This document shows, one piece after another, positions 462 to 19,857 of a DNA stretch of 40,712 nt. Source of the stretch: a virus; IMG/VR virus record IMGVR_UViG_3300043395_000254, positions 1 through 40,712 of that record, one strand, 5' to 3'. Position 1 is the stretch's first letter; every line of letters starts with the position of its first letter. Position numbers and translations under genes: made by a program. Below the pieces are notes generated by a model that was not told where the DNA came from, made no database searches, and saw only the letters and a list, made by a program, of their open reading frames with translations.

Positions 462-681
462 GCGATCTGTTTGCGATTAGCTATACTTATCAATGACCGT
501 TGAATGATAAGCACACATTATCAATAGACACACAGATACTACCAGCATCAACACACATCAACACACACAGCACAGTGTAATAAGTATTTCACACTCACGC
601 AAACTAACACAAATACATCAGCACCAACCTAATAAGACACACGAGTCCACACACCAGTAGGCATACCCATAAGGAACGCTG

Positions 682-801
682 ATGGCTATACTTAAGGGGC
701 TACACGGATCCACTGGGTTTTGGGGCTTGACACATCGGGGCAGCCATGTTATGGTAGGTTCATCGGTGGGGGAGAGACCGCCGAGAACATCGACAACCTG
801 A
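682..801 (+). CDS. Small early protein, 39 aa, unknown
   Basis: The ATG is preceded at six bases by AAGGA, one of the clearer ribosome sites in the early region. The product is basic and rich in Gly, Ser and Thr (begins MAILKGLHGS). I recognise no family. It lies first after the G-poor leader, where T7-like phages keep small host-takeover genes, but its short length leaves it uncertain. Confidence 0.4.
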   Translation: MAILKGLHGSTGFWGLTHRGSHVMVGSSVGERPPRTSTT

Positions 802-877
802 CTGATTCTCAACGCTCTGGCTCTGGAGCAGCACCGCTGCCTTCGTGAGTAGCTAACGACCTGGGGGACATACTCAG

Positions 878-961
878 ATGCCTCAGGGATTCACAAACTC
901 ACGATGGAGATCCACACAGACGAGAGAATACCTCACTGAGGATGGGGAAGCACACCCTTGA
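878..961 (+). CDS. Possible 27-aa early peptide
   Basis: A short frame (begins MPQGFTNSRW) with a purine-rich GGGGGA 9-14 bases upstream of the ATG. No family is recognised. It lies between two other tiny frames and could be a leader peptide or chance. Confidence 0.28.
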   Translation: MPQGFTNSRWRSTQTREYLTEDGEAHP

Positions 962-967
962 TAGTTC

Positions 968-1036
968 ATGCTAACCGATGCACAGCCAGCTGTGATTGAG
1001 CTTCGACTTGCTCACATCGGTATTGCTCGCCAATGA
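968..1036 (+). CDS. Possible 22-aa early peptide
   Basis: ATG six bases after the previous frame's stop; product begins MLTDAQPAVI. The close spacing would allow reinitiation. Nothing else supports it, and a TCACACTCAT copy lies just downstream at 1054. Confidence 0.2.
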   Translation: MLTDAQPAVIELRLAHIGIARQ

Positions 1037-1069
1037 GGTGAGCACACTATTGATCACACTCATCGCGCC

Positions 1070-1391: not shown

Positions 1392-1596
1392 CTATGATCG
1401 AATGCTTGAGCTTATTGCCCATCTTGATGGTCTTGATCCTGAGCATGGAGATAGCAATGTCTTCCTGAACTTCCTAGATGAATATGCACCTAGTGATTAC
1501 ATGTTAGATGCTGAGTTTGATATGTATGGATTCAGGGATGCACATGCTGCTGAGTATGTAGCAGTGCTTGAAGAGTATCTACAGGAGATGATGTAA
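1384..1596 (+). CDS. Small acidic early protein, 70 aa
   Basis: Starts ATGACTGA over the stop of the preceding frame and ends by sharing one base with the next ATG (TAATG), so it is locked into the early operon. The product (begins MTDYDRMLEL, ends YLQEMM) is strongly acidic and predicted mostly helical, with no membrane segment. No family recognised. Confidence 0.7.
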   Translation: MTDYDRMLELIAHLDGLDPEHGDSNVFLNFLDEYAPSDYMLDAEFDMYGFRDAHAAEYVAVLEEYLQEMM

Positions 1597-1877
1597 TGAA
1601 GACGTATCAAATGTTTATGGGTATGAACATCCCGAATGGTGATGTTGTTACCAATGCTGAATGGAATGAGTTTGTTAAAGTCCTTGATACTGTCTTTGAT
1701 GGATACACTGTCAGCACTGTTGATGGTGTATGGAAGAGTGAACACGAACCTACTAAGTGTGTCACTGTCTGTACGAAGTACAAGGATGATGTGATGTATG
1801 TTGCGTCTAAGTATAAAGACGCATTCATGCAGGACTCAGTGGCTATCCAACAATTACCTGCTATGGAGTTTGTCTAA
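1596..1877 (+). CDS. DUF3574-like small protein, 93 aa
   Basis: The middle reads VTNAEWNEF, then DGYTVSTVDGVWKSE, then a helix with YKDAFMQDSVAIQ. This follows the DUF3574 pattern (VTxxEWxxF, a GxTVxDxxGxW strand, YKxxFxQxSV near the end), a small alpha/beta family of unknown role. The match is from memory of the pattern. TAATG-coupled to the gene before; a TCACACTCAC copy begins five bases after its stop and a 93-base gap follows. Confidence 0.6.
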   Translation: MKTYQMFMGMNIPNGDVVTNAEWNEFVKVLDTVFDGYTVSTVDGVWKSEHEPTKCVTVCTKYKDDVMYVASKYKDAFMQDSVAIQQLPAMEFV

Positions 1878-1930
1878 GTAGTCACACTCACAAAAGCCCG
1901 TAGTGCTACCCAACTACCAACGCGCTAATG

Positions 1931-1954
1931 TTGTTAAAGAGACGCCGCTATAAT
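1931..1954 (+). promoter_or_regulatory. Candidate promoter with a perfect TATAAT
   Basis: TATAAT at 1949-1954 lies 16 bases before the next start, in one of the few real gaps of the early region. TTGTTA at 1931-1936 is a fair -35 but only 12 bases away, so the -35 may be poor or different. Just upstream, 1880-1894 carries TCACACTCAC followed by AAAAG, resembling a T3-type promoter core. Either could drive the endonuclease-methyltransferase pair separately. Confidence 0.4.
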
Positions 1955-1970
1955 TTACTTATGACTATCA

Positions 1971-2462
1971 ATGACACTGCAACAGGAATGGATTGATACC
2001 TTCAATAAACTACAACAACTTAGCGATTCATTGAATGTTGGTGACCCCTTTAATTATAACAGGGGTCGTGAGATACACACTGCATTTACCCTTGGGTTGA
2101 CTGTTAGTCAAACTTTCAGTGGAGCTGATGCTTACCTTGGTGATCAGCCAGTTGAACTTAAATCAACCACCACTAAAACCATCAAAGCCACATACAACGG
2201 CATCAGTGTTCAACCTACTTGGGATGATCAAGAGGACTATCTAATCAACGAAAAGCTTGGTAAGTATGTTTATCATTACTTCACTCGTTATGAGGGTTCC
2301 GAACTTGTAGAAGCTTGGCGTATGGATTGCGCTGATGTTCTGTCTATATTGCTCCCTAAACTCAAGGAGAGCTATAAGACTACACTAACTCGCAAGGACC
2401 CACGTCTTGGTGCCACCATCACTAAGAAGGAAATTGAGTCTTATGCAGAACGTATCATCTAA
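1971..2462 (+). CDS. PD-(D/E)XK restriction-endonuclease-like protein
   Basis: 163 residues. A helix with REIHTAF is followed by GADAYLGDQPVELKST, the PD-(D/E)XK pattern with Asp53, Glu62 and Lys64 as likely metal and catalytic residues. The rest is mixed alpha/beta with a basic C-terminus. The size fits small type II restriction enzymes or phage-encoded nucleases. An adenine methyltransferase begins 12 bases after it, so a restriction-modification-like pair is plausible; degradation of host DNA is the alternative. The ATG at 1962 dies after 11 codons, so 1971 is the start. Confidence 0.6.
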   Translation: MTLQQEWIDTFNKLQQLSDSLNVGDPFNYNRGREIHTAFTLGLTVSQTFSGADAYLGDQPVELKSTTTKTIKATYNGISVQPTWDDQEDYLINEKLGKYVYHYFTRYEGSELVEAWRMDCADVLSILLPKLKESYKTTLTRKDPRLGATITKKEIESYAERII

Positions 2463-2473
2463 CCTATCCACTA

Positions 2474-3022
2474 ATGAACAGCAACGCAATCCTTTATTCT
2501 CCTGGTAAGAACGACGAATGCTACACACCAGCATATGCGGTCGAGCCTATTCTCAAATACATACCTTCTGGGGCTACTGTATGGTGTCCATTTGATGACG
2601 AGTCTAGTGAGTTTGTTAAGCTAATCTCACAGCAAAACAAGGTTGTTCACACTCACATCTTTAGCGGCCAATCATTTCTTACATACAACCCAAACTTTGA
2701 CTGGGATGTCATTGTATCCAACCCACCATTCACAAATAAACGCAAATACTTCGAGAAAGCTTTATCGTTCAACAAACCATTCGCACTCATTATGAGTAAC
2801 ACTTGGCTTAACGATAGTGCTCCGAAGCAGCTCTTTAAGGATAAGGAGTTACAGTTGTTGATGTTTGATAAGCGAATAGAGTTCATTCAGCCAGATAGAG
2901 AGGTTACTGGTAAAGTGACATTCAGTAGCAGTTATTATTGCTGGAACTTCTTGCCTAAGCAGATCATTATGGAGACATTGAATCGTCCGCGTAAATCATC
3001 CACTACCGCACAAGCCAAATGA
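2474..3022 (+). CDS. Phage N6-adenine DNA methyltransferase-like protein
   Basis: 182 residues. Begins with a YTPAYAVEPIL segment, then WCPFD (residues 37-41) in the place of the AdoMet-binding motif, then VIVSNPPF (80-87) with catalytic motif NPPF. This is the layout of compact phage adenine methyltransferases. It probably methylates phage DNA, either against host restriction or against the nuclease-like product of the gene before. Its stop overlaps the next gene by four bases. A TCACACTCAC copy at 2647 lies inside it. Recognition site unknown. Confidence 0.72.
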   Translation: MNSNAILYSPGKNDECYTPAYAVEPILKYIPSGATVWCPFDDESSEFVKLISQQNKVVHTHIFSGQSFLTYNPNFDWDVIVSNPPFTNKRKYFEKALSFNKPFALIMSNTWLNDSAPKQLFKDKELQLLMFDKRIEFIQPDREVTGKVTFSSSYYCWNFLPKQIIMETLNRPRKSSTTAQAK

Positions 3023-3288
3023 CCTACCAACTCACTGTAGAAGATGTTGTTAGTCTGCGAGTCATTCCATTTCAACACTCTGAAGAATGTTTCCGTCGTA
3101 TCTCTAAGATGAGCAGAAATGAACTGGTTGACGCTTGCAAAGACTTCATTGCAGCTGAAGAGGCAATGAACTTGATGCACACTAAGTCTGTCGATCAATG
3201 CAAGGACGCACTACACCGTTTGTGTGTAGAGATCCAAGACTACCAAGACAGGCTTGGTTGGGAAGTCAACCGCTTTCCTGTTAAGTAA
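3019..3288 (+). CDS. Hypothetical early protein, 89 aa
   Basis: ATGA overlap with the methyltransferase stop, so probably translationally coupled. The product (begins MTYQLTVEDV) is predicted nearly all helical, with a long amphipathic stretch around residues 30-80. Three cysteines are present but do not form a clear zinc motif. No family recognised; context suggests the defence/counter-defence module. Confidence 0.65.
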   Translation: MTYQLTVEDVVSLRVIPFQHSEECFRRISKMSRNELVDACKDFIAAEEAMNLMHTKSVDQCKDALHRLCVEIQDYQDRLGWEVNRFPVK

Positions 3289-3304
3289 ACACTACCGATC
3301 ATTG

Positions 3305-3424: not shown

Positions 3425-3433
3425 TTCACAATC

Positions 3434-4000
3434 ATGACTGCCACCCAAACAATGATGCTCAAAGGCGATTCACTTATTGCACACAACACTGAATGGATGA
3501 CCCTCATCAATCGTGGTGAGAAGACACGCACCGATATGATCATGGACGCAGGTTATGCCTATGACAATGGCAAGGCTATGTATGTTGACTACTACACCGA
3601 ACTACTCAATGCTAAAGGAGTTATTCCTGTGACTACTGTTGATGTTGCTGATGTTGAGTATGACAACCTGTCCACAAATGAACAAGAGCTGTACGATGCA
3701 ATTACTAACCTGCTAGGTGAGAAATGGACTCATGAGGAAACGATTGAGTTCATGGACGAGTTAGAGGACATTGGTATTGAGACTGCCTCTGACTTTGAGG
3801 ATGCTTATGAGTACACCAGTGATGAGTATTGGGCAGAGAAAGACTTTGCTGAGTACTTCGTCATTGAGGTTATGGATGCACGTATCCCTGACATTGTAAT
3901 GGCAGCTATTGATTGGCAAGACGTATGGGATCACAACCTGCGTTATGACTACAACGCTATTGAGGCTGCTAACGGTACCTTCTTCTTTCGGAATCACTGA
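3434..4000 (+). CDS. ArdA-like antirestriction protein
   Basis: 188 acidic residues. The C-terminal half (about 118-188) reads like ArdA: DFEDAYEY, SDEYWAEKDFAEYFVIE, IPDIVMAAIDW, then a final aromatic stretch ending FFFRNH. ArdA proteins are elongated DNA mimics that occupy type I restriction enzymes, consistent with the many Asp and Glu. The N-terminal part matches less well and may be a separate module. It sits 400 bases after a methyltransferase gene, so the phage seems to combine two ways of avoiding restriction. Confidence 0.6.
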   Translation: MTATQTMMLKGDSLIAHNTEWMTLINRGEKTRTDMIMDAGYAYDNGKAMYVDYYTELLNAKGVIPVTTVDVADVEYDNLSTNEQELYDAITNLLGEKWTHEETIEFMDELEDIGIETASDFEDAYEYTSDEYWAEKDFAEYFVIEVMDARIPDIVMAAIDWQDVWDHNLRYDYNAIEAANGTFFFRNH

Positions 4001-4002
4001 TT

Positions 4003-4149
4003 ATGTTCAAAGAGTATGAAGTCACACTCACGTCGGGCATTTGGTATCTCATTGCCAAGGATGTAGAAGCAGCAGCATGGGCTGCATTAGAGCTAGCCAA
4101 TGAGGCTAGTGAGCAACTGATCAATGTACGTTTAGCGGAGGAATGGTAA
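4003..4149 (+). CDS. Hypothetical early protein, 48 aa
   Basis: Starts two bases after the ArdA-like stop; its TAA overlaps the next ATG. The product (begins MFKEYEVTLT) has a beta-type N-terminus and an Ala-rich helix (DVEAAAWAALELANEAS), the shape of small phage proteins with a host-protein-like WxxA helix. Function unknown. A TCACACTCAC copy starts at 4022, encoding V-T-L-T. Confidence 0.62.
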   Translation: MFKEYEVTLTSGIWYLIAKDVEAAAWAALELANEASEQLINVRLAEEW

Positions 4150-4331
4150 TGACTATTCATGACACATCCATCCCTGTTAGTGTCTTTCCTGATGAGTTCA
4201 TGCCCCTACTCAAGGTAATCAACTGTGCAATACAGATGCCTGAGAAGTTTGCATTAACTAATGAAGAGTTAGACAAGATTCGGTCATTTCAAAATGACTT
4301 CACTGACCTTGCATTTGAGTACGGAGTTTAA
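4149..4331 (+). CDS. Hypothetical early protein, 60 aa
   Basis: I chose ATG 4149 over the in-frame ATG 4143 because GGAGG at 4137-4141 is seven bases from 4149 but one base from 4143, and because TAATG overlap is the local rule. The product (begins MTIHDTSIPV) is acidic, with a helical C-terminal half (NEELDKIRSFQNDF). No family recognised. Confidence 0.65.
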   Translation: MTIHDTSIPVSVFPDEFMPLLKVINCAIQMPEKFALTNEELDKIRSFQNDFTDLAFEYGV

Positions 4332-4639
4332 TGGCTAAGAAAGAATACTTCCCTAACAACTGGCAAGAATACAAGGACGCAGATGACGACAGCTTCATCC
4401 CTCATACCTTTGAGGAGATCATGTCTTGGAAGGTTGCAGGTTGGGAGTTACCTAGCTCTGTGTGTTGTGTTATCCGTGTCACTGATGTAAACACCAAGAA
4501 AGTCAAAGAACATGTCTATAGCAAGCGTAGTGCTGCTCAAGCCAAGGTCAATCAACTGATTGATACACCTGGCATTGAGTTCACTGTTGCTGACCACGAC
4601 GCTATCCACCACCTTTCACCTGCTGATTTCAATGACTGA
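4331..4639 (+). CDS. Hypothetical early protein, 102 aa
   Basis: TAATG-coupled. The product begins MAKKEYFPNN and carries a central SSVCCVIRVTD strand followed by a basic helix (KEHVYSKRSAAQAKVNQLID), a strand-helix layout common in small phage nucleic-acid-binding proteins. It ends acidic. I recognise no named family; it looks like a cyanophage-conserved hypothetical. Confidence 0.68.
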   Translation: MAKKEYFPNNWQEYKDADDDSFIPHTFEEIMSWKVAGWELPSSVCCVIRVTDVNTKKVKEHVYSKRSAAQAKVNQLIDTPGIEFTVADHDAIHHLSPADFND

Positions 4640-4769: not shown

Positions 4770-5622
4770 ACTCACCACCTGGGGAGAAGCACTTGACTAC
4801 ACATTCAAAACCCGTCATTCATGGCGACATGGAAACGGAGCAAAGACTGCTGCAATCAATGCAGGACACTTTACGAGACTTAGAGGGCTTAGCTTTCCAA
4901 TACATCGAATCACTCAACCGATCATCAACGAACTCAGTACAGAGTTGGAGGACGAAGGAAAGTCAGATGCGACAATCAATCGCATCGTCAGTGCTATCTC
5001 TACGGTACTTAATCACTGCGCTTTCGACGGACTGATCCCTGCACCACCTAAGTTCAGGCGTCGTAAGGAACATGAAGGACGCATCACTTTCTACACCAAG
5101 GAAGAAGTCAATCAGCTGTACCACTCAGCGATTGATCCATTCATGAGAGAGGATGCGGCTGACATTCTATTAGTTGCTGCTTACACAGGCATGAGGCAAG
5201 GTGAGCTACTCAAGCTCAAGGCTAAGGACATTGACCTTGGTCTGAATGTTATTCACGTTGGAGGTCGAGCTGATGTTGTCACTAAAGCAGGCAACTACCG
5301 TAGCATTCCTATTCACACTCATATTGAAACTGTTCTCAGCAAACGCATATCAAACGTCAACTCCAACGTACCGATCTTCGGTGATGAATGGAACGACAAG
5401 GACCAACTGTTACGAGTCTTCAAGAAGGTCAACCGTTATATCGGTAAGGACGATAGCTATGTGTTCCATACACTAAGGCACAGCTTTGGCACATGGTGTG
5501 CTGAAGCAGGCGTTCCCATTCGTACCATCATGGACCTTATGGGACACAAGCGTATCGAGACAACGCTGAGATACTCTAAGTGTACTGACAAAGCTCGCAC
5601 CAAAGCTGTTAACTCACTATGA
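4738..5622 (+). CDS. int: Tyrosine recombinase (phage integrase)
   Basis: 294 residues with a complete catalytic set: Arg153 (TGMRQGELL), Lys183, His244 and Arg247 (HTLRHSFGTW), His270 (LMGH) and nucleophile Tyr279 (TTLRYSK). Residues about 10-100 form the helical core-binding domain. Integrases occur upstream of RNA polymerase in P-SSP7-type cyanophages, where lysogeny has rarely been seen. Starts at 4741, 4747 and 4756 are also possible. No attP is recognisable; the inverted repeats at 405-530 are the best candidate protein-binding array. A TCACACTCAT copy starts at 5313. Confidence 0.93.
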   Translation: MMSMLSMPLTELTTWGEALDYTFKTRHSWRHGNGAKTAAINAGHFTRLRGLSFPIHRITQPIINELSTELEDEGKSDATINRIVSAISTVLNHCAFDGLIPAPPKFRRRKEHEGRITFYTKEEVNQLYHSAIDPFMREDAADILLVAAYTGMRQGELLKLKAKDIDLGLNVIHVGGRADVVTKAGNYRSIPIHTHIETVLSKRISNVNSNVPIFGDEWNDKDQLLRVFKKVNRYIGKDDSYVFHTLRHSFGTWCAEAGVPIRTIMDLMGHKRIETTLRYSKCTDKARTKAVNSL

Positions 5623-6083
5623 AAAAAGCTTTATTTGCTGCCCTCACACTCATTTCTGTGTGGGCTAACCCTGCTGAGGCAACTCCTCAACTGCGTAACC
5701 TATTCACTGCAGTACAGGCTACTGGCACCAGCATTGTCTTAGATGACCCACGCATCTGCAAAGACCCTCAGCTGATGGGTATGTACAGCTATCGCAAGGA
5801 TGTCATTGATCAGCTCACCATTTGTGTTGCTAACCACCGTGGTGATAACGCTGGGCTGTACGACACCATCCTCCATGAGTCAGTGCATGTAGCACAAGCC
5901 TGTAAAGGAGGCCCTCTCTACTCACTAAGTTCACTTCTCAAATCATCACCTGATAACGAGATTGACTTTGTAAATAGTCGCTATACAGGTGAGCAACTGC
6001 ATCGTGAACTCGAGGCACGGGTGATTGCTCGTGATCAAGACGAAGTGTATGTAACCAACCTGATTAAGGAGGAGTGCAAGTAA
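5619..6083 (+). CDS. Secreted HExxH zinc-metallopeptidase-like protein
   Basis: 154 residues. N-terminus MKKALFAALTLISVWANPAEA is a classical signal peptide with cleavage after A-E-A (residue 21). The mature part contains ILHESVHVAQACKG, a HExxH zinc site (HESVH), and a downstream Glu in REL-EARVIARDQDE that could be the third ligand. It is probably exported to the periplasm; a role in the cell wall or in superinfection exclusion is conjecture. Overlaps int by four bases (ATGA). The peptidase call rests on one motif. Confidence 0.68.
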   Translation: MKKALFAALTLISVWANPAEATPQLRNLFTAVQATGTSIVLDDPRICKDPQLMGMYSYRKDVIDQLTICVANHRGDNAGLYDTILHESVHVAQACKGGPLYSLSSLLKSSPDNEIDFVNSRYTGEQLHRELEARVIARDQDEVYVTNLIKEECK

Positions 6084-6377
6084 TTGGCTACTGATCGTAC
6101 AAAGAAACGCAAGGAGCAGCGATGGCGTCAGATCAATAGGTCTGTCGCTACTTCATGGCTAGAGCGTCAACCAGATGAAGTGCTGGACGCATTGGCACTG
6201 GCTGATCATCCAACCATCAAGGATGACTCTCATAGTCTCCTGTCTTATGTCTATTGGTTAATAGCACATAACCACATCACAAAAGCGGAGGAGATCGTAT
6301 TTGGCTACACCAGCACAGATTGCGGAACAAGTTGCACACGAACGGGAAGCGATCCGATGCGGGATCGAGAGGCTTGA
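6084..6377 (+). CDS. Small basic protein upstream of RNA polymerase, TTG start
   Basis: 97 residues from a TTG placed nine bases after AAGGAGGAG (6066-6074); no ATG fits. The N-terminus is very basic (MATDRTKKRKEQRWRQ), the middle helical. The last 26 codons overlap the polymerase start in another frame for 77 bases, so translation of the two must be linked. Its place matches where T7 keeps early regulators (0.7), but I see no kinase motif. Function unknown. Confidence 0.62.
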   Translation: MATDRTKKRKEQRWRQINRSVATSWLERQPDEVLDALALADHPTIKDDSHSLLSYVYWLIAHNHITKAEEIVFGYTSTDCGTSCTRTGSDPMRDREA

Positions 6378-8700
6378 TAAGGACACTAGAAAGGCCGAGG
6401 AACGTGAGTATGCGTCGTCCTCTATCTATGGTCGTGCTTCTATCAAGGCAGCTCAGGAGGCTGTAGCGCAAGCGATCAGAGATACGTTCAGCCGTGTTAC
6501 CGAGCGCAAGAATGGTCAGCACTTTGCTGAGATTAAACAGTATCTGATTCAGTTCAATACCGAAGAGGAATCTCACAAGCTCGCCAACATTGCACTCAAG
6601 CGTACCTTTGATCTTGTCTTCAGTCAAAAGCGCAAGGACTCCAGGCGACACCCCAACTCAGTCAGTAATGTCTGTGTTGGCATCGGACACGCAGTAGAAG
6701 CTGAGTGTCAGATCAGATGGTTTGAAGAGCAAGACCCTGAGCTGCTAAAACGAATCCAGCGTAAATACTGGAACAGTACAACTGGCACTGATCAGAAGAA
6801 GACAGTGGCACAGATCATGATGGGCCGCGAGGGCTATGTGTGGCCGTCTTGGCCTGCACCTATCCGAGCACGGCTTGGAGGCTGGCTGCTGGACCTTGTG
6901 ATCACCACTACAGGTTGGTTTGAATCAAGGCTTACTTATGAAGGTCGCCCAAAACTCACACTCATAGAACCCACTAAAGCTTATTTACAAATACAAGGTG
7001 AGTTAATGGATCAGGCCATGCTGTTTGCTCCAATGGCGTGGCCTATGCTCATCGAGCCCAACGATTGGACAAATGAACGTGCTGGTGGCTACCTCTTGAA
7101 TGAGGTGATGAGGGGCCACGATCTGGTCAGGCACGGCAATCCCTCAATTAAACAGCCGGAGATACCACTCGGGTTCTTGAACCGTCTGCAGAAGGTTGCT
7201 TACCGCATTAACCCGTTCATCTACGGAGTAGCGAAGCAGCTTGATGCTAAGGGTTACAAGCTTGATAAGTTCAAACCGCTGTCGGCTGCAGCCTTATGGC
7301 CAATGCCAACACCTCCTCCTGACATTGAAGAGAACCAGGAAGCTCGGTTCCAGTACAGGAAGGAGAGAACAGAAGCAGAGAACAACAAGAAGAAGTACGA
7401 GCGTTCTCTACATGTGAGGACAACCGTTACTCTTGACACTGCTTCCCGATTTGTTGGGAGGGATCGTTTCTTTTTACCTTGGAGCTTCGATTACCGTGGA
7501 CGTGCTTACCCGATCCCCCCATTTCTCACGCCACACGATACAGACTTTGGAAAGAGTCTGATTAGGTTTGCTGATGAGTCGTTCATCACGCCAGATGCTG
7601 AGGGTTGGCTTGCTTTTCAGGTAGCTACTACCTATGGGTTGGACAAGAAACCTATGAGCGATAGACTTGAGTGGGTTAAGAATAACCTCACACTCATCCA
7701 CAACATCGCTACCGACCCGATTGGTTATCTACCTGAATGGGAAGCGGCTGATGAGCCATGGCAATTCCTTGCAGCGTGCGAGGAGTATAACGCCTGTCTC
7801 ATTGACTGCACTAGGCACTACACAGGACTGATGGTCGCTACAGATGCAACCTGTAGTGGTCTTCAAATACTGGCAGGCCTAGCCCGTGATAAAGGCACAG
7901 CAGCACTGGTTAATGTCCTACCCTCAGACGCTCCTCAGGACGCCTACAAGACGGTCCTAGAGGCTATGGAGGGTATCCCGGAGAGGCTGATGCCTTACAT
8001 GGATAGAGGTGTGTCGAAGAGATCAGTTATGACCATCCCATACAATGCCACTATCCAGTCGTCACGTTCCTATATCAAGGATGCAGTCCACGAAAACATG
8101 CCTAAAGACTCGCAAGGTAACTTGCTAGTCGATAGGGTTACCTCAGAAGAGGCAACAGCTCTCGCTAAATCTCTTAGAGACGCCCTTAACAAGATAGCCC
8201 CTGGTTGTCTTGCTGTAAGGGATTGGATTGGCAAGGAGATGTCTGCCGCTATCAAGAGAGGTAAGACGGAGATCCGATGGACAACACCATCAGGGTTCAC
8301 TGTCGTACAGAAACGAGACAAGCTGAAGATGAAGCGGCTAGACCTAAAGCTTCTAGGTCGCTGTCAGTTCAGTGTTGTCGATAGCGTGGAAGGTCCAGAC
8401 TCAAACAAGCATAGAGCAAGTGGGGCACCTAATCTCATTCACTCTCTCGATGCTTCACTGCTACATCTGACCTTTACTGATTTCCTTGCACCATTCTCAG
8501 TCATCCATGACTCCGTGCTTTGTCGTGCAACAGACATGTCTGTCCTGTCCACTATTGTAAGGGAGACATACATGCACCTATTCGCGGAGCACGATTACCT
8601 GAAAGACTTTGCCCAACAGATTGGTGCAGAGACTGACCCACCGATCATTGGTGACCTTGAACCGGAAACCGTGATTGATTCCACCTACTTCTTTTGTTAA
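6301..8700 (+). CDS. T7-like single-subunit DNA-dependent RNA polymerase
   Basis: 799 residues (T7: 883). Catalytic signatures are in order: DYRGRAYP (397-404), TDATCSG with Asp515, KRSVMTIPYN with Lys573 and Tyr581, the specificity loop (about 670-695), PNLIHSLDAS with His714, and IHDSV with Asp737. The start is TTG, six bases after GGAGGAGA. In the specificity loop the residue aligned to T7 Asn748 is Asp681 (as in T3), and T7 Arg756 and Gln758 align with Gln689 and Ser691, so its promoter differs from T7's. It should transcribe the middle and late genes. Two TCACACTCAT copies (6956, 7688) lie inside. Confidence 0.97.
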   Translation: MATPAQIAEQVAHEREAIRCGIERLDKDTRKAEEREYASSSIYGRASIKAAQEAVAQAIRDTFSRVTERKNGQHFAEIKQYLIQFNTEEESHKLANIALKRTFDLVFSQKRKDSRRHPNSVSNVCVGIGHAVEAECQIRWFEEQDPELLKRIQRKYWNSTTGTDQKKTVAQIMMGREGYVWPSWPAPIRARLGGWLLDLVITTTGWFESRLTYEGRPKLTLIEPTKAYLQIQGELMDQAMLFAPMAWPMLIEPNDWTNERAGGYLLNEVMRGHDLVRHGNPSIKQPEIPLGFLNRLQKVAYRINPFIYGVAKQLDAKGYKLDKFKPLSAAALWPMPTPPPDIEENQEARFQYRKERTEAENNKKKYERSLHVRTTVTLDTASRFVGRDRFFLPWSFDYRGRAYPIPPFLTPHDTDFGKSLIRFADESFITPDAEGWLAFQVATTYGLDKKPMSDRLEWVKNNLTLIHNIATDPIGYLPEWEAADEPWQFLAACEEYNACLIDCTRHYTGLMVATDATCSGLQILAGLARDKGTAALVNVLPSDAPQDAYKTVLEAMEGIPERLMPYMDRGVSKRSVMTIPYNATIQSSRSYIKDAVHENMPKDSQGNLLVDRVTSEEATALAKSLRDALNKIAPGCLAVRDWIGKEMSAAIKRGKTEIRWTTPSGFTVVQKRDKLKMKRLDLKLLGRCQFSVVDSVEGPDSNKHRASGAPNLIHSLDASLLHLTFTDFLAPFSVIHDSVLCRATDMSVLSTIVRETYMHLFAEHDYLKDFAQQIGAETDPPIIGDLEPETVIDSTYFFC

Positions 8701-9628: not shown

Positions 9629-9825
9629 CTTACGGCACTCCTGAATTCTACGCTGAAGGGTTTGCTGACTACCTTGCTGATGTCGATTCAGACAACCCTG
9701 CAACTACAGAGAACCTCATCCGTGGATTCTACCTAGCATTGGATGATTGGTTCAATTATCATGACCACCAAGCAACTGCATATGATGAACTCCGACAGCG
9801 AGTTCGTAAGGCACTCGCCGTGTGA
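9616..9825 (+). CDS. Hypothetical protein, 69 aa
   Basis: Start 9616 gives MANLTYGTPE, overlapping the endonuclease I stop by 13 bases; the 3' end overlaps the primase-helicase start. The product is acidic and Tyr-rich (TPEFYAEGFADYLADVDSD), ending in a basic helix. No family recognised. Sandwiched between two replication genes, so a replication accessory role is possible but unsupported. Confidence 0.6.
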   Translation: MANLTYGTPEFYAEGFADYLADVDSDNPATTENLIRGFYLALDDWFNYHDHQATAYDELRQRVRKALAV

Positions 9826-11359
9826 GAACTGTGGCAGTAGTGATGCCAATAGTCTTTACGATGATGGACATACCTACTGCTTTTCTTGCAACACCTACGG
9901 ACATACCGAAGAGTATGTTCACACTCACAAACAAATGTCCAATGTCCACCTTAAAGGCTCAGCCGAACGGCTGCAGAAACGAGGCATATCAGAAAAAGTA
10001 TGCCAACAATACAAAATCTACCGAGATGGAGATGTCCTACGCTTCCATTATTTCGACAGCTCTGGAATACTTAAGGGCTGCAAGCTAAAAACTAAAAACA
10101 AAATCTTCACCTACGAAGGAGAGACCCCTGGAACACTCTTTGGACAACATTTGTTTCCCTCCACTGGAAAACGAGTCGTTATCACTGAAGGGGAACTCGA
10201 TGCAGCTTCATGTAGTGAGGCTATGCCGGGGTGGCCGATGGTATCTCTACCTAGCGGTGCCGCAGCGGCAAGGAAGTCGATTCAACGGGCTATCCCATGG
10301 CTCCAGGGTTATGAGGAGATTGTCTTGTTCTTCGACAATGACGAGGCGGGCCGTAAGGCAACGGAGGAAGCAGCAAGCGTCCTACCACCTGGCAAGACAA
10401 AGATCGCACGTCTGGAGGCGTACAAGGATGCATCAGATGCCCTCCAAACCAATGACACTGAAGCGATTCGTCGAGCTATATGGGATGCAAAGCCGTACCG
10501 TCCAGATGGAATTGTAGACGGGAAGAGCCTCCTAGATCTTGTAACCACACCTAACCCACCTTGTGATTATGAGTATCCGTTTGAAGGTATAAATGCCAAG
10601 CTCCAAGGTATTCGCCTGGGCGAGCTGGTGACAATTACTGCTGGATCTGGAATCGGGAAATCGTCCTTTTGTCGTGAGTTAGCTGCCTATCTTCTGAACA
10701 AAGGAGAGAAGGTTGGTTATATCGCCTTGGAAGAGTCAAACCGCCGCACCGCCCTTGGACTGATGTCCGTTGCATGTGGTAAATCTCTTCACATCGGTGA
10801 GCACGACAAATCCACACTCACCGAGGCCTACAAAAACTCTATTGCCAAGTGGGACCTGTTTCTTTATGACGGCTGGGGCTCTGTAGACCCTGACATTATT
10901 TACAACAGAGTGGAGTATCTCGCTACTGGATTAGGTACTAGGGTGATCTTCCTTGACCACCTAAGCATCTTGCTGTCTGGTCTTGATGGCGATGAGCGTC
11001 GAATGATTGATCAGACAATGACTAAGTTGCGTTCACTTGTAGAGCGCACTGGTATTGCACTATTTCTTGTTTCACATTTACGAAGATCGTCCGATGACAA
11101 AGGACATGAAGAGGGCGCTCGGGTCACTTTGGGGCAGCTCAGGGGAAGCGCAGCTATTGCTCAACTCTCTGATGCAGTCATCGCACTCGAGCGAAATCAA
11201 CAGACCGACTCTGCTGGAAATAGCACGACAGTGCGAGTGCTTAAAAATCGCTATACAGGGCAAACTGGCATCGCTTGTCGATTGAGTTATGACTTGTCCA
11301 CTTGCAAATTCGAGGAGACTTTAGTCAATGACGACTTTGACCCAACCACTGATTTCTAA
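9785..11359 (+). CDS. Primase-helicase, T7 gp4-like
   Basis: 524 residues from ATG 9785, chosen because MNSDSEFVRHSPCENCGSSD lines up with the T7 gp4A N-terminus; 9761 and 9782 are alternatives. Zinc-binding domain: Cys13, Cys16, Cys32, Cys35. TOPRIM primase: Glu135 (TEGELDA) and DNDEAGR (184-190). RecA-type helicase: Walker A GSGIGKSS (287-294), Walker B VIFLDH (387-392), switch HLRRSSDD (431-438), probable arginine finger in KNRYTG, acidic tail ending TTDF. It unwinds the fork and makes primers. A TCACACTCAC copy is at 9919. Confidence 0.95.
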   Translation: MNSDSEFVRHSPCENCGSSDANSLYDDGHTYCFSCNTYGHTEEYVHTHKQMSNVHLKGSAERLQKRGISEKVCQQYKIYRDGDVLRFHYFDSSGILKGCKLKTKNKIFTYEGETPGTLFGQHLFPSTGKRVVITEGELDAASCSEAMPGWPMVSLPSGAAAARKSIQRAIPWLQGYEEIVLFFDNDEAGRKATEEAASVLPPGKTKIARLEAYKDASDALQTNDTEAIRRAIWDAKPYRPDGIVDGKSLLDLVTTPNPPCDYEYPFEGINAKLQGIRLGELVTITAGSGIGKSSFCRELAAYLLNKGEKVGYIALEESNRRTALGLMSVACGKSLHIGEHDKSTLTEAYKNSIAKWDLFLYDGWGSVDPDIIYNRVEYLATGLGTRVIFLDHLSILLSGLDGDERRMIDQTMTKLRSLVERTGIALFLVSHLRRSSDDKGHEEGARVTLGQLRGSAAIAQLSDAVIALERNQQTDSAGNSTTVRVLKNRYTGQTGIACRLSYDLSTCKFEETLVNDDFDPTTDF

Positions 11360-12429: not shown

Positions 12430-12944
12430 ACCTGATCTTCGACCTAGAAACAGACGGCCTATACGATGATTGCACCCACATCCACTGCATTGGTGTCTAC
12501 GATCTCGACACTAGGCAGACCTTTACATTCAATGATGAAGGCAGTGAGCAACCGATTACCAAAGGTGTCCAACTTCTTGAGGATGCAGATACTCTCGTTG
12601 GTCATAACATTATCGGTTACGATCTTCCTGTTATCCGCAAGCTCTTCCCTTGGTTCCAGTTCGCTGGTACTGTTGTGGATACTTTGGTTCTCAGCCGTAT
12701 TTATCACGCTGACCTGTTGAAGACTGATCAGAAGCGTAAGTGGAAGAACATGCCACTACAGCTCTATGGTCGTCACTCACTTGAGGCTTATGGTCACAGG
12801 CTTGGTGAATATAAGGGCAGCTTCGGTAAAACCACTGACTGGAAAGAGTGGTCAGAGGATATGCAAGATTACATGATTCAAGATGTTGTTGTTACCACCA
12901 AACTTTGGCACCATTTCCTACCCTACCTGACTGGGTTGCGTTAG
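12426..12944 (+). CDS. DNA polymerase, 3'-5' exonuclease portion (N-terminal fragment)
   Basis: 172 residues with three exonuclease motifs: IFDLETDGL (Exo I, Asp and Glu), VGHNIIGYDLPVI (Exo II) and DYMIQDVVVTTKLW (Exo III). This is the proofreading domain of a T7 gp5-type family A polymerase. It stops at TAG 12942-12944 right after Exo III, and the polymerase part continues in the -1 frame. The last residues (PYLTGLR) are out of frame with the homologous continuation LPDWVALEHRVAQ. It may work as a separate subunit or be artificially cut. Confidence 0.85.
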   Translation: MNLIFDLETDGLYDDCTHIHCIGVYDLDTRQTFTFNDEGSEQPITKGVQLLEDADTLVGHNIIGYDLPVIRKLFPWFQFAGTVVDTLVLSRIYHADLLKTDQKRKWKNMPLQLYGRHSLEAYGHRLGEYKGSFGKTTDWKEWSEDMQDYMIQDVVVTTKLWHHFLPYLTGLR

Positions 12945-14167
12945 AGCACCGAGTCGCACAAATACTAACGGAGCAAGAGATCTATGGATGGGCTTTTGAT
13001 GAGCCTGCTGCACGGGAACTTGAATCGACTCTCAGACAGGAACTTGAAGGTCTTAATCAAGTACTACGAAACAGGTACCCTTACGTTGCAGGACCGGAGT
13101 TCACTCCTCGTAGACCTAATAAGACCCAAGGGTACATCGCAGGAGCTACTCTCACTAAACTGAAGGAGTTCAATCCAGGTAGTAGAGATCACATCGCATG
13201 GGTGATGGAGACACTACATGGTTGGAAGCCTGATAAAGAAACAGCTAGTGGCAAGACTGCCATTGACGAGACTGTGCTCAAAGACATTGGAACTGAGGAA
13301 GCCCTTCAGTTTTATCGATGTCTTGAGCTAACCAAGCAGCTCGGCATGTTATCTGAGGGTAAGAACGCCTGGCTCAAGTTAGTCAAGAACAACCGAATAC
13401 ACCACAACTGTTCAGTAAGCACAAATACTCATAGGTGTGCTCACAGAAACCCAAACCTTGCACAGGTACCCAGTGATCTTAACTTTAGAAAGTTATTCAG
13501 AGCTAGCCCTGGTTCTGTCATGGTTGGTGCTGATCTCGCAGGCATTGAACTACGAATGCTTGCCCACTATCTGGCTCGATATGATGGAGGCCGTTACGGA
13601 GACATTTTACTCCACGGTGATATTCACCAAGAGAACGCCAACAAGATAGGCATTAGCAGACAGCTAACAAAAACAGTTACATACGCATTTTTATATGGTG
13701 CAGGCGATCAAAAGATTGGGCTCTCGTACGATGCCCAGCTTCCCCCGAACAAGGCGAAAGAAAAGGGCGCAGAAATTCGCGCAGCTTATGTTGCTGCCAT
13801 TGACGGTTTGGGTGAGTTACTTACCGCTGTTCGTTCGGCAGCTGACAGAGGCTTTGTCAAGTCGATAGATGGTCGCAAGATCGCTGTAGATAGCCCTCAT
13901 AAAGCTCTCAACTACCTGCTTCAATCTTCAGCTGGGGTTATCGCTAAACGCTGGATGGTTATTGCCAATCAGAATCTGCCAGCCGATCACACTCATCAAG
14001 TATTGTTCTGCCACGACGAATTACAATACGAGACACTACCAAACCATGCCGACACTCTTAAGCAACACCTTGAATTCTGTTCCAGACTCGCTGGAGAGTA
14101 TTATGGACTCCGGGTCAGAATTGACGCAGAAGCTAAAGTCGGAGCAACCTGGGCAGACGTGCATTAG
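12848..14167 (+). CDS. DNA polymerase, family A polymerase portion (C-terminal fragment)
   Basis: The open frame starts at a GTG 12848, but its first 25 residues shadow the exonuclease domain; real sequence probably begins near LPDWVALEHRVAQ (about 12925). Motif A is VGADLAGIELRM, motif B is RQLTKTVTYAFLYGAG, motif C is CHDELQYE, all intact. Joined to the exonuclease fragment it gives a polymerase of about 580 residues, short against T7's 704. The frames differ by -1 over a 97-base overlap. I see no standard slippery heptamer, intron or intein, so a lost base, a real gene split or an assembly error are the options. Confidence 0.88.
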   Translation: MVRGYARLHDSRCCCYHQTLAPFPTLPDWVALEHRVAQILTEQEIYGWAFDEPAARELESTLRQELEGLNQVLRNRYPYVAGPEFTPRRPNKTQGYIAGATLTKLKEFNPGSRDHIAWVMETLHGWKPDKETASGKTAIDETVLKDIGTEEALQFYRCLELTKQLGMLSEGKNAWLKLVKNNRIHHNCSVSTNTHRCAHRNPNLAQVPSDLNFRKLFRASPGSVMVGADLAGIELRMLAHYLARYDGGRYGDILLHGDIHQENANKIGISRQLTKTVTYAFLYGAGDQKIGLSYDAQLPPNKAKEKGAEIRAAYVAAIDGLGELLTAVRSAADRGFVKSIDGRKIAVDSPHKALNYLLQSSAGVIAKRWMVIANQNLPADHTHQVLFCHDELQYETLPNHADTLKQHLEFCSRLAGEYYGLRVRIDAEAKVGATWADVH

Positions 14168-17162: not shown

Positions 17163-17869
17163 ACCCTTATCAAAAACTACAAAGTCGAAAAAGGAAGTGG
17201 TCTCCTGTACAGACCACAGCTGGCAAGCTTGTAGAGGGTGCGGAGGAAGTGATCTTCCGTGCTCTCGCTATGCGTCATATGGAACTACCTGTAGGTGACT
17301 TTATTGAAGCATCCCTTTCTGAAATTCCAGTTCTATCACAAGACCTACTCCGATCTAACATTAAAGACGAGGAGAACCACGACTTGGCTCTCAACTTCAT
17401 CGCCAATGCTCTCGGTGTTGATCCTGAAGCCGAGAAAGAAGCTAAACGTATCCGAGAAGCGTGGCTTTCGCATCCAGATCACACGGTCGTCAAAGCGTTG
17501 GTTGCCGAGCGTGCATTGTTCTTCGTATTACTCCCACTGTTTCGGTTTAATGGTGACGCTGGTCTCAGGACCGTATCCGCTGACATTAGCCGAGATGAGC
17601 AAGTCCATGTGGCTGCAAACTCTCTTGTCTGCAGGGAACTTGGATACGAACCATCTGCAAGTCTCGACAAGCTCAGGAAGGCAACGATCAATTGGGTTAT
17701 GACACCTTTGAAATCGTCCACTAACAAATATCTGGACAAAAAATTTTGGCTGGATGCTAGCGATCGCCTGATGTATGAGGGTAAGGCACCTGAGCTTTCT
17801 GACACCAAGCGAGCCCGTATGCCCGCCTTCTTTGAACATGCAAACCCCAATCTCCCTCAGTACGCTTAA
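17159..17869 (+). CDS. nrdB: Ribonucleotide reductase small (beta) subunit lacking the radical tyrosine
   Basis: 236 residues from ATG 17159 (ATGA overlap). Dimetal ligands are seen in the order expected for NrdB: Glu near 29-30, Glu71-x-x-His74 (EENH), Glu117, Glu147-x-x-His150 (DEQVH). In canonical R2 the radical Tyr follows the first ExxH His by four residues; here that position is Leu78. The subunit therefore cannot store a tyrosyl radical there and probably relies on a metal-based oxidant. Small against the usual 320-375 residues. Confidence 0.86.
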   Translation: MNPYQKLQSRKRKWSPVQTTAGKLVEGAEEVIFRALAMRHMELPVGDFIEASLSEIPVLSQDLLRSNIKDEENHDLALNFIANALGVDPEAEKEAKRIREAWLSHPDHTVVKALVAERALFFVLLPLFRFNGDAGLRTVSADISRDEQVHVAANSLVCRELGYEPSASLDKLRKATINWVMTPLKSSTNKYLDKKFWLDASDRLMYEGKAPELSDTKRARMPAFFEHANPNLPQYA

Positions 17870-18026
17870 GCTTCACAACGAAAGACTTGGTGAGATCCTG
17901 AATGAACTAGAAGCACACTTCTCATTCAGGACTCCAACTCCTAGTGACCGCATTGAAGACATCATGTACAAAGCTGGTCAAGCTAGTGTTATTGACTACA
18001 TCAAACAAAAACTGGATGAAGACTAA
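17838..18026 (+). CDS. Hypothetical protein, 62 aa
   Basis: Starts at ATG 17838 inside the last 32 bases of nrdB and ends TAATG into the next gene. Product begins MQTPISLSTL; helical with acidic and hydrophobic heptads (LNELEAHFSF, EDIMYKAGQASVIDYI). It looks like a conserved cyanophage small protein at the boundary between nucleotide metabolism and virion genes. No function known. Confidence 0.66.
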   Translation: MQTPISLSTLKLHNERLGEILNELEAHFSFRTPTPSDRIEDIMYKAGQASVIDYIKQKLDED

Positions 18027-18265
18027 TGTGTTTCGGATCACCGCCTAAGCCACCTGACCCGCCGCCGCTCCCACCAGCACCTAAACCACCTCCGCCGCCT
18101 GCTCCTCCGCCGCCTGCACCTGCACCTGTACAACAGCCAGATGCACAGCCAATGCTTAAGACACGAGAGAGTCGTAAGGAAGAGGCAGGAACTCTCTCAC
18201 AAGGTACAGCTTCACTGCGTATCCCATTGAATGTGGGTAGCCGTGGAGGTCTCAATCAAGGTTAA
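18026..18265 (+). CDS. Proline-rich T7 gp7.3-like tail/host-range protein
   Basis: 79 residues. After MCFGSPP, residues 7-36 are nearly all proline with spaced Lys and Ala. The C-terminus (ESRKEEAGTLSQGTASLRIP, then GSRGGLNQG) resembles the end of T7 gp7.3 (ESGRKKARAGGKKSL, GGGIN). gp7.3 lies just before the portal gene in T7 too and is a virion protein needed for adsorption. The Pro-rich arm could be an extended spacer. Cys2 near the start is unusual. TAATG overlaps on both sides. Confidence 0.6.
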   Translation: MCFGSPPKPPDPPPLPPAPKPPPPPAPPPPAPAPVQQPDAQPMLKTRESRKEEAGTLSQGTASLRIPLNVGSRGGLNQG

Positions 18266-19857
18266 TGAAAGCTCGTGCTCGCTACACGCAGCTCACCAGT
18301 AATCGTAATCAGTTCCTTGACACGGCAGTTGAATGCTCAAAGCTGACGCTGCCGTATCTCGTACAGGATGATACCAACCATAGTAACTGGAAGAAGTTAG
18401 TCACTCCCTGGCAATCAGTGGGTGCTAAGTCAGTAGTCACACTCGCATCTAAGTTGATGCTTGCATTGCTACCTCCTCAAACAACCTTCTTTAAGTTTCA
18501 GATCCGTGATGATAAGCTAGGGACTGAGATCCCTGCTCAAGTCAGGAGTGAACTTGATCTTTCGTTCTCTAAGATGGAACGGATGGTGATGGATCACATC
18601 AATGGGTCTAGTGATCGAGTTGTTGTCCACCAAGCAGTCAAGCATTTGATTGTTAGTGGTAATGCTCTGATCTATATGGGTAAGGATGGCCTGAAGCACT
18701 TCCCTTTGAACCGCTACGTGGTCAATCGGGATGGCAACGGTAATGTCCTAGAGATCGTAACCAAGGAACTGATCTCACGTAAAGTACTAGGTGAACTGCT
18801 CCCTGAACCTAATCCCAATGCACCTGGAGATGATGGTTATAAAGATGGTGCAGATGATGACGACGTTGAGGTGTACACCTACGTCCGACTAGAGAATGGA
18901 CGCTGGGTTTGGCATCAGGAAGCACTCGATAAGATCCTTCCTAACAGCCGATCCACTGCTCCTAAAAATGCTAGTCCGTGGCTTGTCCTACGTTTCAATA
19001 CTGTAGATGGTGAAGACTATGGTAGAGGTCGAGTTGAGGAGTTCCTTGGAGATCTACGGTCTCTTGAAGGTCTCTCTCAGGCACTCGTAGAAGGCTCTGC
19101 AGCAGCCGCTAAGGTTGTCTTCGTAGTATCACCCTCAAGCACCACTAAACCTGCCACGCTAGCCGCTGCAGGCAACGGTGCAATCGTTCAAGGAAGACCT
19201 GATGACATTGGTGTTATTCAGGTAGGCAAGACTGCTGACTTCCGTACTGCTGCTGAGATGGCAAGTACGATTGAACGTCGTCTTGCTGAAGCATTCCTTG
19301 TTCTTAATGTAAGGCAATCTGAACGTACTACTGCAGAAGAAGTGCGTCTTACACAGATGGAACTAGAGCAACAGCTGGGAGGTCTCTTCTCACTGTTGAC
19401 TGTTGAGTTCCTAGTGCCTTATCTAAACCGTGTACTCCTTGTTCTCCAACGAGACAATGAGCTACCTAAGATCCCTAAAGATCTTGTCCGTCCTCAGATC
19501 GTGGCTGGTGTTAATGCACTTGGTCGTGGTCAGGATCGTGAGTCACTCACACAATTCATCACTCTCATAGCTCAAACACTTGGACCTGAGGCGTTGATGA
19601 AGTACATCGATCCCACCGAAGCTATCAAACGTCTGGCTGCTGCTCAAGGTATTGATGTTCTGAACCTTGTTAAAGGTATGGAACAGATCCAACAGGATCA
19701 AGCACAACAGATGCAGCGTCAAGCACAACAATCCCTTGTTGATCAAGCAGGACAACTAGTCCGTGCTCCTATGTTCGACCCATCTAAGAACCCTAATGGA
19801 CAACAAACCAACCCGCCCACAGAAGGTAGCCAAGCCCCCGCTCCCCCCAGTGAGTAA
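18265..19857 (+). CDS. Portal (head-tail connector) protein, T7 gp8-like
   Basis: 530 residues, the size of T7 gp8 (536). Recognisable stretches: an early LTLPYLVQDD, GAKSVVTLASKLMLALLPPQTTFFKF, GRVEEFLGDLRSLEGLSQALVEG, and RQSERTTAEEVRLTQMELEQQLGG, followed by a Gln-rich tail. The dodecamer forms the DNA gate and the docking ring for the tail. It heads the morphogenesis block and is followed by scaffold as in T7. Confidence 0.94.
   Translation: MKARARYTQLTSNRNQFLDTAVECSKLTLPYLVQDDTNHSNWKKLVTPWQSVGAKSVVTLASKLMLALLPPQTTFFKFQIRDDKLGTEIPAQVRSELDLSFSKMERMVMDHINGSSDRVVVHQAVKHLIVSGNALIYMGKDGLKHFPLNRYVVNRDGNGNVLEIVTKELISRKVLGELLPEPNPNAPGDDGYKDGADDDDVEVYTYVRLENGRWVWHQEALDKILPNSRSTAPKNASPWLVLRFNTVDGEDYGRGRVEEFLGDLRSLEGLSQALVEGSAAAAKVVFVVSPSSTTKPATLAAAGNGAIVQGRPDDIGVIQVGKTADFRTAAEMASTIERRLAEAFLVLNVRQSERTTAEEVRLTQMELEQQLGGLFSLLTVEFLVPYLNRVLLVLQRDNELPKIPKDLVRPQIVAGVNALGRGQDRESLTQFITLIAQTLGPEALMKYIDPTEAIKRLAAAQGIDVLNLVKGMEQIQQDQAQQMQRQAQQSLVDQAGQLVRAPMFDPSKNPNGQQTNPPTEGSQAPAPPSE

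Follow-up and report, generated by a model that had tools for sequence, protein, structure and literature searches.

Why should a short DNA word be repeated many times, always in the same orientation, through the early and replication genes of a phage? The question is raised by IMG/VR virus record IMGVR_UViG_3300043395_000254, analysed here over its whole length of 40,712 bases (hereafter the window; coordinates are those of its + strand). A first-pass annotation, made from the letters alone, had picked out the ten-base word TCACACTCAY (word 1) and suggested that it might serve the phage RNA polymerase as a site, or be a primase or other replication signal, a Chi-like or DNA-marking site, or the target of a phage DNA-binding protein. 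The window comes from a T7-like cyanophage, one of a group of widespread viruses of Synechococcus and Prochlorococcus, and all 17 of the records matched by its left half are Synechococcus phages (e.g. DSL-LC07 and S-CBP1). We find it well supported that word 1 is a site under selection as nucleic acid, and a trans-acting reader of the word is the natural inference.

Word 1 in the window

The nine-base core of word 1, TCACACTCA, is present as 11 exact copies on the + strand and none on the − strand, with 0.28 copies expected on the + strand under a third-order Markov model of the window, and a Markov scan ranks it as the most over-represented 9-mer of the window. All eleven starts given in the first-pass annotation are correct (Table 1), as is its statement that the tenth base is always a pyrimidine, which is C in five and T in six of the exact copies and gives the form TCACACTCAY. 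Its view that the repetition is not random is borne out by the Markov count, the check it had itself proposed. All exact copies lie before 14.0 kb, the last starting at 13987, so that the description of the word as strand-specific and confined to the early and replication region also holds for them. The accompanying list of one-mismatch copies was incomplete, with three further copies on the + strand (starts 19129, 29689 and 39814) and six on the − strand (1512, 3655, 6702, 24345, 24805 and 35736). The claim that there were none in structural genes and none reversed is therefore true of exact copies but fails for one-mismatch copies, of which those at 18437, 19129 and 19559 lie inside the portal gene.

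Only the ten bases of the word are conserved among the 11 copies, the flanks showing no conservation, and the spelling contains no G. Copies follow one another every 0.3–1.4 kb up to 7.7 kb and are sparser afterwards. Three are noncoding and eight are in open reading frames (ORFs), where they occupy two codon phases and encode T-L-I/T or H-T-H. When the codons of the window were shuffled synonymously, the seven copies within coding sequence (CDS) compared with 0.41 ± 0.62 copies in the shuffles, and none of 300 shuffles reached seven; the ORF cut-off in this test was 50 residues, so that the copy at 4022, in a 48-residue ORF, was scored as noncoding. The earlier argument that protein sequence is not the cause of the repetition thus stands.

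Word 1 in related phages

For comparison we used 22 genomes (the window included), oriented by their RNA polymerase genes, together with the best 80 of 595 IMG/VR loci that surround related RNA polymerase genes. Two of these loci (L043 and L054) are IMG/VR copies of S-CBP1 and S-B28, and they were removed before counts over 100 contigs were made. Across the 837 kb of the best 80 of 595 loci, TCACACTCA has 132 sense and no antisense copies. In a pooled scan of the 100 contigs it has 108 extra within-genome copies against 0.32 expected, spread over 40 genomes, with three copies on the early − strand and none on the late + strand (late parts coming from the 22 genomes only). Its pooled score of 522 compares with 36 for the best late-gene 9-mer, on about 40% as much sequence. 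One late-gene word from the pooled scan, AGACCATC, was set aside as mostly a single orthologous site, located in the window's capsid gene.

An exact-word scan of the early half puts a word of the word-1 type first in 14 of the 22 genomes. Two main dialects can be recognised, CACA(C/A)TCAY and CACATTCAY, alongside other, lineage-specific spellings such as CACCATCA, which occurs in the Syn5 RNA polymerase gene at rotated coordinates 7271 and 8199, both times after a C. The top early word is TCACACTCA in DSL-LC07 and S-CBP1, CACATTCA in S-RIP1, CCACACTCA in S-B28, CACACTCAT in P-SSP7, CACAATCGA in NATL1A-7, TCACCATCA in Syn5, CACCATCAT in P60, CCACGAGAG in S-CBP42 and ATCTCTCAT in S-TIP28. Since S-RIP2 and S-CBP42 are both recorded on strain WH7803 and yet differ in spelling, the spelling seems to follow the phage and not the host.

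Counting each genome's own 8-base spelling in 17 genomes gave 127 copies on the early + strand, 11 late +, 5 early − and 6 late −. The 13 genomes of clade B contribute 85 early +, no late +, 4 early − and 3 late − copies, and the four of clade A (Syn5, S-TIP28, P60 and S-CBP42) 42 early + and 11 late +. Synonymous shuffles were run on 16 genomes with the word chosen beforehand from the scans: in ten, none of 300 shuffles reached the number of copies within CDS, and in the other six, between 1 and 22 of 300 did so (22 for S-B28, 12 for P60). S-SRP01, S-TIP37, P-SSP10, P-GSP1 and S28-C3, which have few or no clear copies, were omitted from both the 16-genome and the 17-genome counts, and S-CBP3 was included in the latter only. 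Pooled over all 22 genomes, word 1 occurs 53 times in early CDS against 14.2 in synonymous shuffles, and 7 times in late CDS against 7.4. Of 90 early copies, 37 lie wholly or partly in noncoding sequence, which makes up 13.6% of bases; the coding copies occupy all three phases. The word is therefore conserved or enriched in many related viruses of marine and lake cyanobacteria, the opposite of the outcome that the first-pass annotation had named as refuting it, although some of these phages have few copies or none.

Could chance, codon usage or protein repeats give rise to such a pattern? Late genes do contain repeats of this sort, including strong Ala-type coding repeats that emerged from a strand-by-half scan, and single genomes with 3–6 copies are weak evidence alone. 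Because one-mismatch and strand-by-half scans gave weaker or other repeats, we do not rely singly on genomes with 3–5 copies. For the window and the pooled set, however, the Markov, strand and synonymous-shuffle controls exclude these explanations, to which we give next to no weight. The same enrichment scan applied to the T7 genome returned nothing but promoter words among the 14 top words listed.

Two further observations concern the range of the phenomenon. S-SRP01 and similar contigs (L013, L036, L076 and L089) have 0–2 forward copies of any word-1 spelling, and the top early word of S-SRP01 is GATGCATTG. The Pelagibacter phage HTVC019P (L110) has a modest early word of its own, TCAACAATCA, with five early, no late and no reverse copies, so that oriented words may extend beyond cyanophages.

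Conserved sites in core genes and a coherent change of spelling

Another way to view the word is gene by gene. We computed self-repeat profiles, in which the 9-mer at each orthologous position is checked for further same-strand occurrences elsewhere in the contig it belongs to, and averaged them over contigs. The dominant peaks in the RNA polymerase, primase/helicase and DNA polymerase genes fall on the window's copies at 7688, 9919 and 13987 (Table 1), so that word 1 occupies orthologous positions in three core genes. Among the lesser peaks, one in the RNA polymerase gene, at offset 692 with z 6.5, belongs to a different word, CAAGGACGC, described below. No position above z 5.2 was seen in the genes for SSB, the endonuclease, the exonuclease or the two reductase genes, and the maxima in portal and capsid genes (5.6 and 6.7) are mostly words of the GCTGCTG type, from Ala runs. 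Outside the core genes, DSL-LC07 has a copy at rotated coordinate 5726, in sequence matching that around the window's copy at 4022.

The word also recurs in phrog_4970, a small gene that directly precedes the portal gene, where it encodes Ser-His-Ser in frame in DSL-LC07 (L009, rotated 17371), S-CBP3 (L012), L022, L023, L047 and L049; the window's own phrog_4970 lacks it.

The conserved sites allow the two dialects to be compared codon by codon. Automatic labelling assigned 57 contigs to CACA(C/A)TCAY (Syn5 being put in this CA group), 28 to CACATTCAY and 14 to neither. In a tree of the RNA polymerases made by a quick method (99 rows, one sequence of fewer than 600 residues being omitted, and 779 columns including the motif codons), the 28 CACATTCAY contigs form one clade with an SH-aLRT value of 99. 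At the primase site, contigs of the CA dialect have CAC-ACT (29 of 49) or CAC-AAT (15 of 49), giving His-Thr or His-Asn, and those of the T dialect have CAC-ATT, giving His-Ile (22 of 24). The RNA polymerase codons read ACA-CTC in 39 contigs of the CA group and ACA-ATC in three, and ACA-TTC in 15 of the 28 T contigs; codon 463 is ACA in all 60 of the contigs that have Thr there. The change from C or A to T in the word thus goes with Leu to Phe in the RNA polymerase and with Thr or Asn to Ile in the primase. The differing base occupies the first codon position in one of these genes but the second in the other, an indication that the nucleic-acid word drives the change. This looks like a nucleic-acid constraint shaping protein sequence in the essential polymerase and primase genes.

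Word 1 and the phage promoters

The proposal that word 1 is a promoter for the phage RNA polymerase drew on the resemblance of CACTCA to part of the T7-class promoter core. However, 20 of the 22 genomes (L010–L015 and L096–L109) have a distinct promoter-like sequence, found as exact repeats of 13–26 bases, with one copy towards the left end of the early region and another inside the RNA polymerase gene (at rotated coordinates 6795–7126). No third copy within two mismatches of the pair was found in those 20 genomes, and a few of the genomes have matches at three or four mismatches. For Syn5, the available text of the published work states only two copies of the promoter, one of which transcribes over 37 kb (PMC3950665). 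That published pair is ATTGGGCACCCGTAA, at rotated 764 and 7110 in Syn5, and it is distinct from word 1; in the other phages, for which we met with no published assignment, we infer that the two-copy sequence is likewise the promoter. Moreover, the unconserved flanks of word 1 are unlike what a promoter needs, and the window's 11 copies have no melting or initiation bases downstream. Taken with the Syn5 mapping, the separate pair leads us to reject a promoter role for word 1, an idea to which we allow only the slimmest of chances.

The promoter-like sequences also bear on what reads the word. They differ among phages sharing one spelling, which argues against the reader being that part of the polymerase which recognises the promoter. 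In the genomes listed, word 1 first occurs downstream of the left promoter-like sequence (in DSL-LC07 this left copy has four mismatches), and the sites in the RNA polymerase, primase and DNA polymerase genes lie downstream of the internal one.

A second oriented word

The pooled scan yields a second word, CAAGGACGC (word 2, CAWGGACG in its general form), which has 89 extra copies against 0.54 expected, two on the early − strand and none on the late + strand. Over the 22 genomes, CAWGGACG occurs 87 times in early sense CDS against 32.5 in synonymous shuffles, and twice in late sense CDS against 18.6. Its starts in the window (306, 3201, 3541, 3751 and 4372) are all on the + strand and all before 4.4 kb. 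Among 413 word-1 and 302 word-2 matches there are 30 cases in which word 2 starts 0–19 bases after word 1; the counts in other 20-base bins range from 1 to 10. The two words are thus associated, but their spacing is loose and none is fixed; one contig (L093) repeats the pair three times.

There is also a third, weaker word, CCT(A/G)TCCAC, with 66 copies in sense and 5 in antisense orientation in the 100 contigs. It is found in the window at 2463, 3667, 8544 and 14196 and also in L018, L020, L038 and L057, and one of its positions, close to the 3′ end of the RNA polymerase gene, is recurrent.

What may read the word

The reading towards which we lean, while holding it tentatively, is that word 1 is a selected, orientation-specific cis-signal on the early and middle units of T7-like cyanophages, read by a co-evolving factor and most likely as RNA. 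With close copies of the promoter-like sequence only at the left end and inside the polymerase gene, long transcripts would span early, middle and late genes alike. A trans-acting factor would recognise the word on the sense strand as RNA, its co-evolution with the word would give each lineage its own spelling, and early and middle messages might thereby meet a different fate from late ones, through processing, decay or translational shut-off. A post-transcriptional step of this kind would be useful because two promoter-like copies alone could not separate early, middle and late classes. We favour the RNA level since the word is sense-only, independent of frame and loosely spaced to its partner, and since the promoter layout implies shared transcripts. 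A fuller version, possible but rather doubtful, is that a sequence code, made up of word 1 (YCACANTCAY) and, in some of the phages, a loosely spaced word 2 (CAWGGACG), tags early and middle messages. A phage-specific factor would recognise the tag in RNA and so assign the parts of one continuous transcript to an early/middle or a late fate, under selection so strong that, where the spelling differs, two essential enzymes, the RNA polymerase and the primase, carry amino acids that keep the tag.

Several results weigh against these proposals. The enrichment itself is uneven: when 10-mers are scanned with one mismatch allowed, word 1 heads the list in only 7 of the 22 genomes, some genomes have few copies (two of any word-1 spelling in S-SRP01, three of their own in S-RIP2 and S-SBP1), and clade A has late copies (six in Syn5, three in S-TIP28 and one each in P60 and S-CBP42). 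On the tree the T spelling has a single origin, so that the coherent change of codons is one event, and in 13 of the 28 T-clade contigs the RNA polymerase site does not carry the word. Pairing with word 2 concerns a minority of copies, mostly in the T dialect. Nor is scarcity in late genes unique to word 2, as 244 of 20,973 8-mers are depleted there (p<1e-3); only five of the 244, CATGGACG among them, show a 1.8-fold enrichment in early genes as well. In RNA folding, no sign of selection for accessibility emerges (mean unpaired 0.574 over 111 sites against 0.555 for transplanted copies, p 0.34), and the RNA-level precedent, RegB of phage T4, has a different and shorter core. Nearly all genes of the region run rightward, which makes sense RNA, non-template DNA and DNA polarity inseparable. 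Finally, no reader was found among families common to the genomes, where the early and middle families present in all 22 are the RNA polymerase, SSB, the endonuclease, the primase and the exonuclease, plus one single-linkage cluster.

Candidate readers were sought among the smaller genes. The 102-residue product of phrog_9569, upstream of the RNA polymerase gene, is not supported as a reader: the family is found in 18 of the 22 genomes but is absent from the four word-bearing genomes of clade A. Its AlphaFold model is modest (pLDDT 72.4, pTM 0.52) and gave no convincing fold match (best Foldseek E 0.21; best VIA-align Z 5.8, with Dmd and Top7 tied), and its sequence has no Pfam match up to E 0.1 and no PDB match up to E 1. 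The family phrog_16003 is found in the four clade-A genomes and in the window, and five aligned copies share an HExxH motif and a hydrophobic start; from these sequence features it appears an unlikely reader of word 1. The small protein of phrog_4970, of unknown function and considered here as sequence, is present in 21 of the 22 genomes and may be counted as a further candidate.

Of the roles offered by the first-pass annotation, the target of a phage DNA-binding protein may still hold in a broader form, as a site read by a trans-acting factor that varies with it. In one rival explanation, a phage protein bound to the duplex word would block or modulate elongation in one direction, as at the stoperators of L5-type mycobacteriophages. 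The likeness is considerable: according to the available part of PMC6550527, stoperators of the L5 clade (Cluster A) are asymmetric 13-bp sites, many per genome and mostly in one orientation relative to transcription, with a genome-specific motif that tracks repressor distance. On the other hand, no recognised repressor family is common to the motif-bearing genomes (phrog_4970 and other unknown proteins lie outside that comparison), and stoperators occur throughout the genome, whereas clade B has 85 early + and no late + copies of the word. A simple roadblock is further argued against because a phage polymerase starting from the internal promoter-like copy must pass the conserved sites in the RNA polymerase, primase and DNA polymerase genes on its way to late genes, and would be halted there unless the host RNA polymerase alone were blocked. 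We consider this explanation somewhat unlikely.

Alternatively, the word might control elongation without a roadblock, with the host RNA polymerase and a phage factor (in the manner of nut or ops sites), or the phage polymerase, pausing or re-loading at it as non-template strand or nascent RNA. This would suit a word that is sense-only, restricted to transcribed sequence, independent of frame and repeated at intervals of 0.3–1.4 kb up to 7.7 kb in the window (more sparsely beyond), and the lineage-specific spelling fits a phage factor. Against it, promoter specificity does not track the word, and the available text of PMC3950665 reports that Syn5 polymerase alone makes no sequence-specific stops on the templates tested, which include the Syn5 polymerase gene with its CACCATCA copies. 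Elongation control by these means is, in our judgement, unlikely.

A replication or recombination signal (primase recognition, a Chi-like site, helicase loading or a packaging mark) would accord with the polarity of the word, and since the few families present in all 22 genomes include replication proteins, the primase/helicase among them, one of these could be the co-evolving reader. Yet the late half should need a signal of that kind as well, and there clade B has no + copies. The primase, Chi and DNA-marking ideas receive no positive support here and do not alone predict confinement to early and middle genes, T7 primase sites are only a few bases long, and the position of the first copy downstream of the left promoter-like sequence is that of a transcript signal. 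We regard this class of explanation as very unlikely.

A conserved, lineage-spelled word on early and middle genes provides a concrete handle, both as a place to look in RNA sequencing data and as bait for the factor. The two promoters of Syn5 and the similar pair in 20 of 22 genomes raise the question of how early, middle and late expression are kept apart. Self-repeat profiles over orthologues are applicable to any phage family.

Genome context

Besides the genes in Table 1, the window encodes SSB, an endonuclease, an exonuclease, ribonucleotide reductase, the portal protein and a split DNA polymerase. An early cluster at 1596–3022 holds an ORF resembling DUF3574/SAM lyase, a weakly PvuII-endonuclease-like ORF (below the Pfam cut-off) and, adjoining them, a short DNA-methyltransferase-like ORF. 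Both phrog_9569 (4331–4639) and phrog_16003 (5619–6083) are present in the window, a combination seen in no other of the 22 genomes. An integrase gene is found in only 10 of the 22.

Table 1. Word copies, variants and associated features of the window
Feature	Position	Strand	Remarks
Word 1 copy TCACACTCAC	589..598	+	Noncoding
Word 1 copy TCACACTCAT	1054..1063	+	Noncoding
Word 1 copy TCACACTCAC	1882..1891	+	Noncoding
Word 1 copy TCACACTCAC	2647..2656	+	Methyltransferase-like ORF 2474-3022, codon phase 2 (VHTH)
Word 2 copy CAAGGACGC	3201..3209	+	
One-mismatch variant TCACAATCAT	3426..3435	+	Spelling used by other phages of the same dialect
Word 1 copy TCACACTCAC	4022..4031	+	48-residue ORF 4003-4149 (phrog_29942), phase 1
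Word 2 copy CAAGGACGC	4372..4380	+	In ORF 4331-4639
Integrase gene	4738-5622		
Word 1 copy TCACACTCAT	5313..5322	+	Within integrase gene
Word 1 copy TCACACTCAT	5644..5653	+	Within ORF 5619-6083 (phrog_16003)
T7-like RNA polymerase gene	6301..8700	+	
Word 1 copy TCACACTCAT	6956..6965	+	RNA polymerase gene, 5′ part
Candidate internal promoter-like region (tentative)	7135..7162	+	Aligned by eye with the internal sequence of related phages; a second copy was not found in the window
Word 1 copy, conserved RNA polymerase site	7688..7697	+	T-L-I codons; self-repeat z 14.3, 100 contigs
Primase/helicase gene	9743..11359	+	
Word 1 copy, conserved primase/helicase site	9919..9928	+	H-T-H codons; self-repeat z 14.8, 90 contigs
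One-mismatch variant CCACACTCAC	10812..10821	+	
DNA polymerase gene, polymerase part	12848..14167	+	
Word 1 copy, conserved DNA polymerase site	13987..13996	+	Self-repeat z 9.5 (10.0 one base on), 54 contigs
One-mismatch variant CCACACTCAA	16051..16060	+	Tenth base A
phrog_4970	17775-18026		Small gene just upstream of portal

Relation to described phage repeats

We found no prior description of the word in the open-licence literature, including papers on T7-like cyanophages, as far as their available text goes, and one could have been missed. Comparison with described systems nevertheless helps to place it. Like stoperators, the word is asymmetric, multi-copy and used in one orientation (11 + and no − copies in the window; 85 early + against 4 early − in clade B). 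The stoperator consensus varies in step with a cognate repressor; the spelling of the word varies by clade, and no cognate protein was found among the families checked. Unlike stoperators, it has a restricted distribution, with no late + copies in any of 13 clade-B genomes and 11 late + against 42 early + in clade A. Moreover, whereas stoperators are sites for a lysogeny repressor, the word sits at orthologous codons of core enzymes in a set of genomes of which fewer than half have an integrase.

The Start Associated Sequences (SAS/ESAS) of Cluster K mycobacteriophages resemble word 1 in being short, asymmetric repeats of mostly one orientation in the non-structural half of the genome (in clade B for the word) and of unknown function, as far as the available text of PMC3203893 goes, and word 2 adds a likeness of its own in its Shine-Dalgarno-like AAGGA. 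The same text places SAS typically 3–7 bp upstream of start codons. In our own ORF calls, by contrast, of 90 word-1 copies no more than 4 are followed by a gene start at 10–19 nt, counted from the first base of the word, and for 21 a gene start lies within 60 nt; many copies lie deep inside genes.

The targets of T4 RegB offer a parallel at the RNA level: in the available part of PMC3014915 they are GGAG sequences in early mRNAs, some within coding sequence, which let a phage factor inactivate those messages. Words 1 and 2 are likewise enriched early and rare late on the sense strand. However, word 1 of the window has no G and word 2 has GGAC in place of the GGAG core, the word is longer and its spelling depends on lineage, and no RegB-like gene turned up, although no search was aimed at RegB. 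With T7-class promoters, word 1 shares the character of directional, phage-specific sites lying partly inside genes, but a separate promoter-like pair exists and the flanks of the word are not promoter-like. Stoperators, SAS and RegB targets are thus the closest described patterns, each sharing some features of the word and failing in others.

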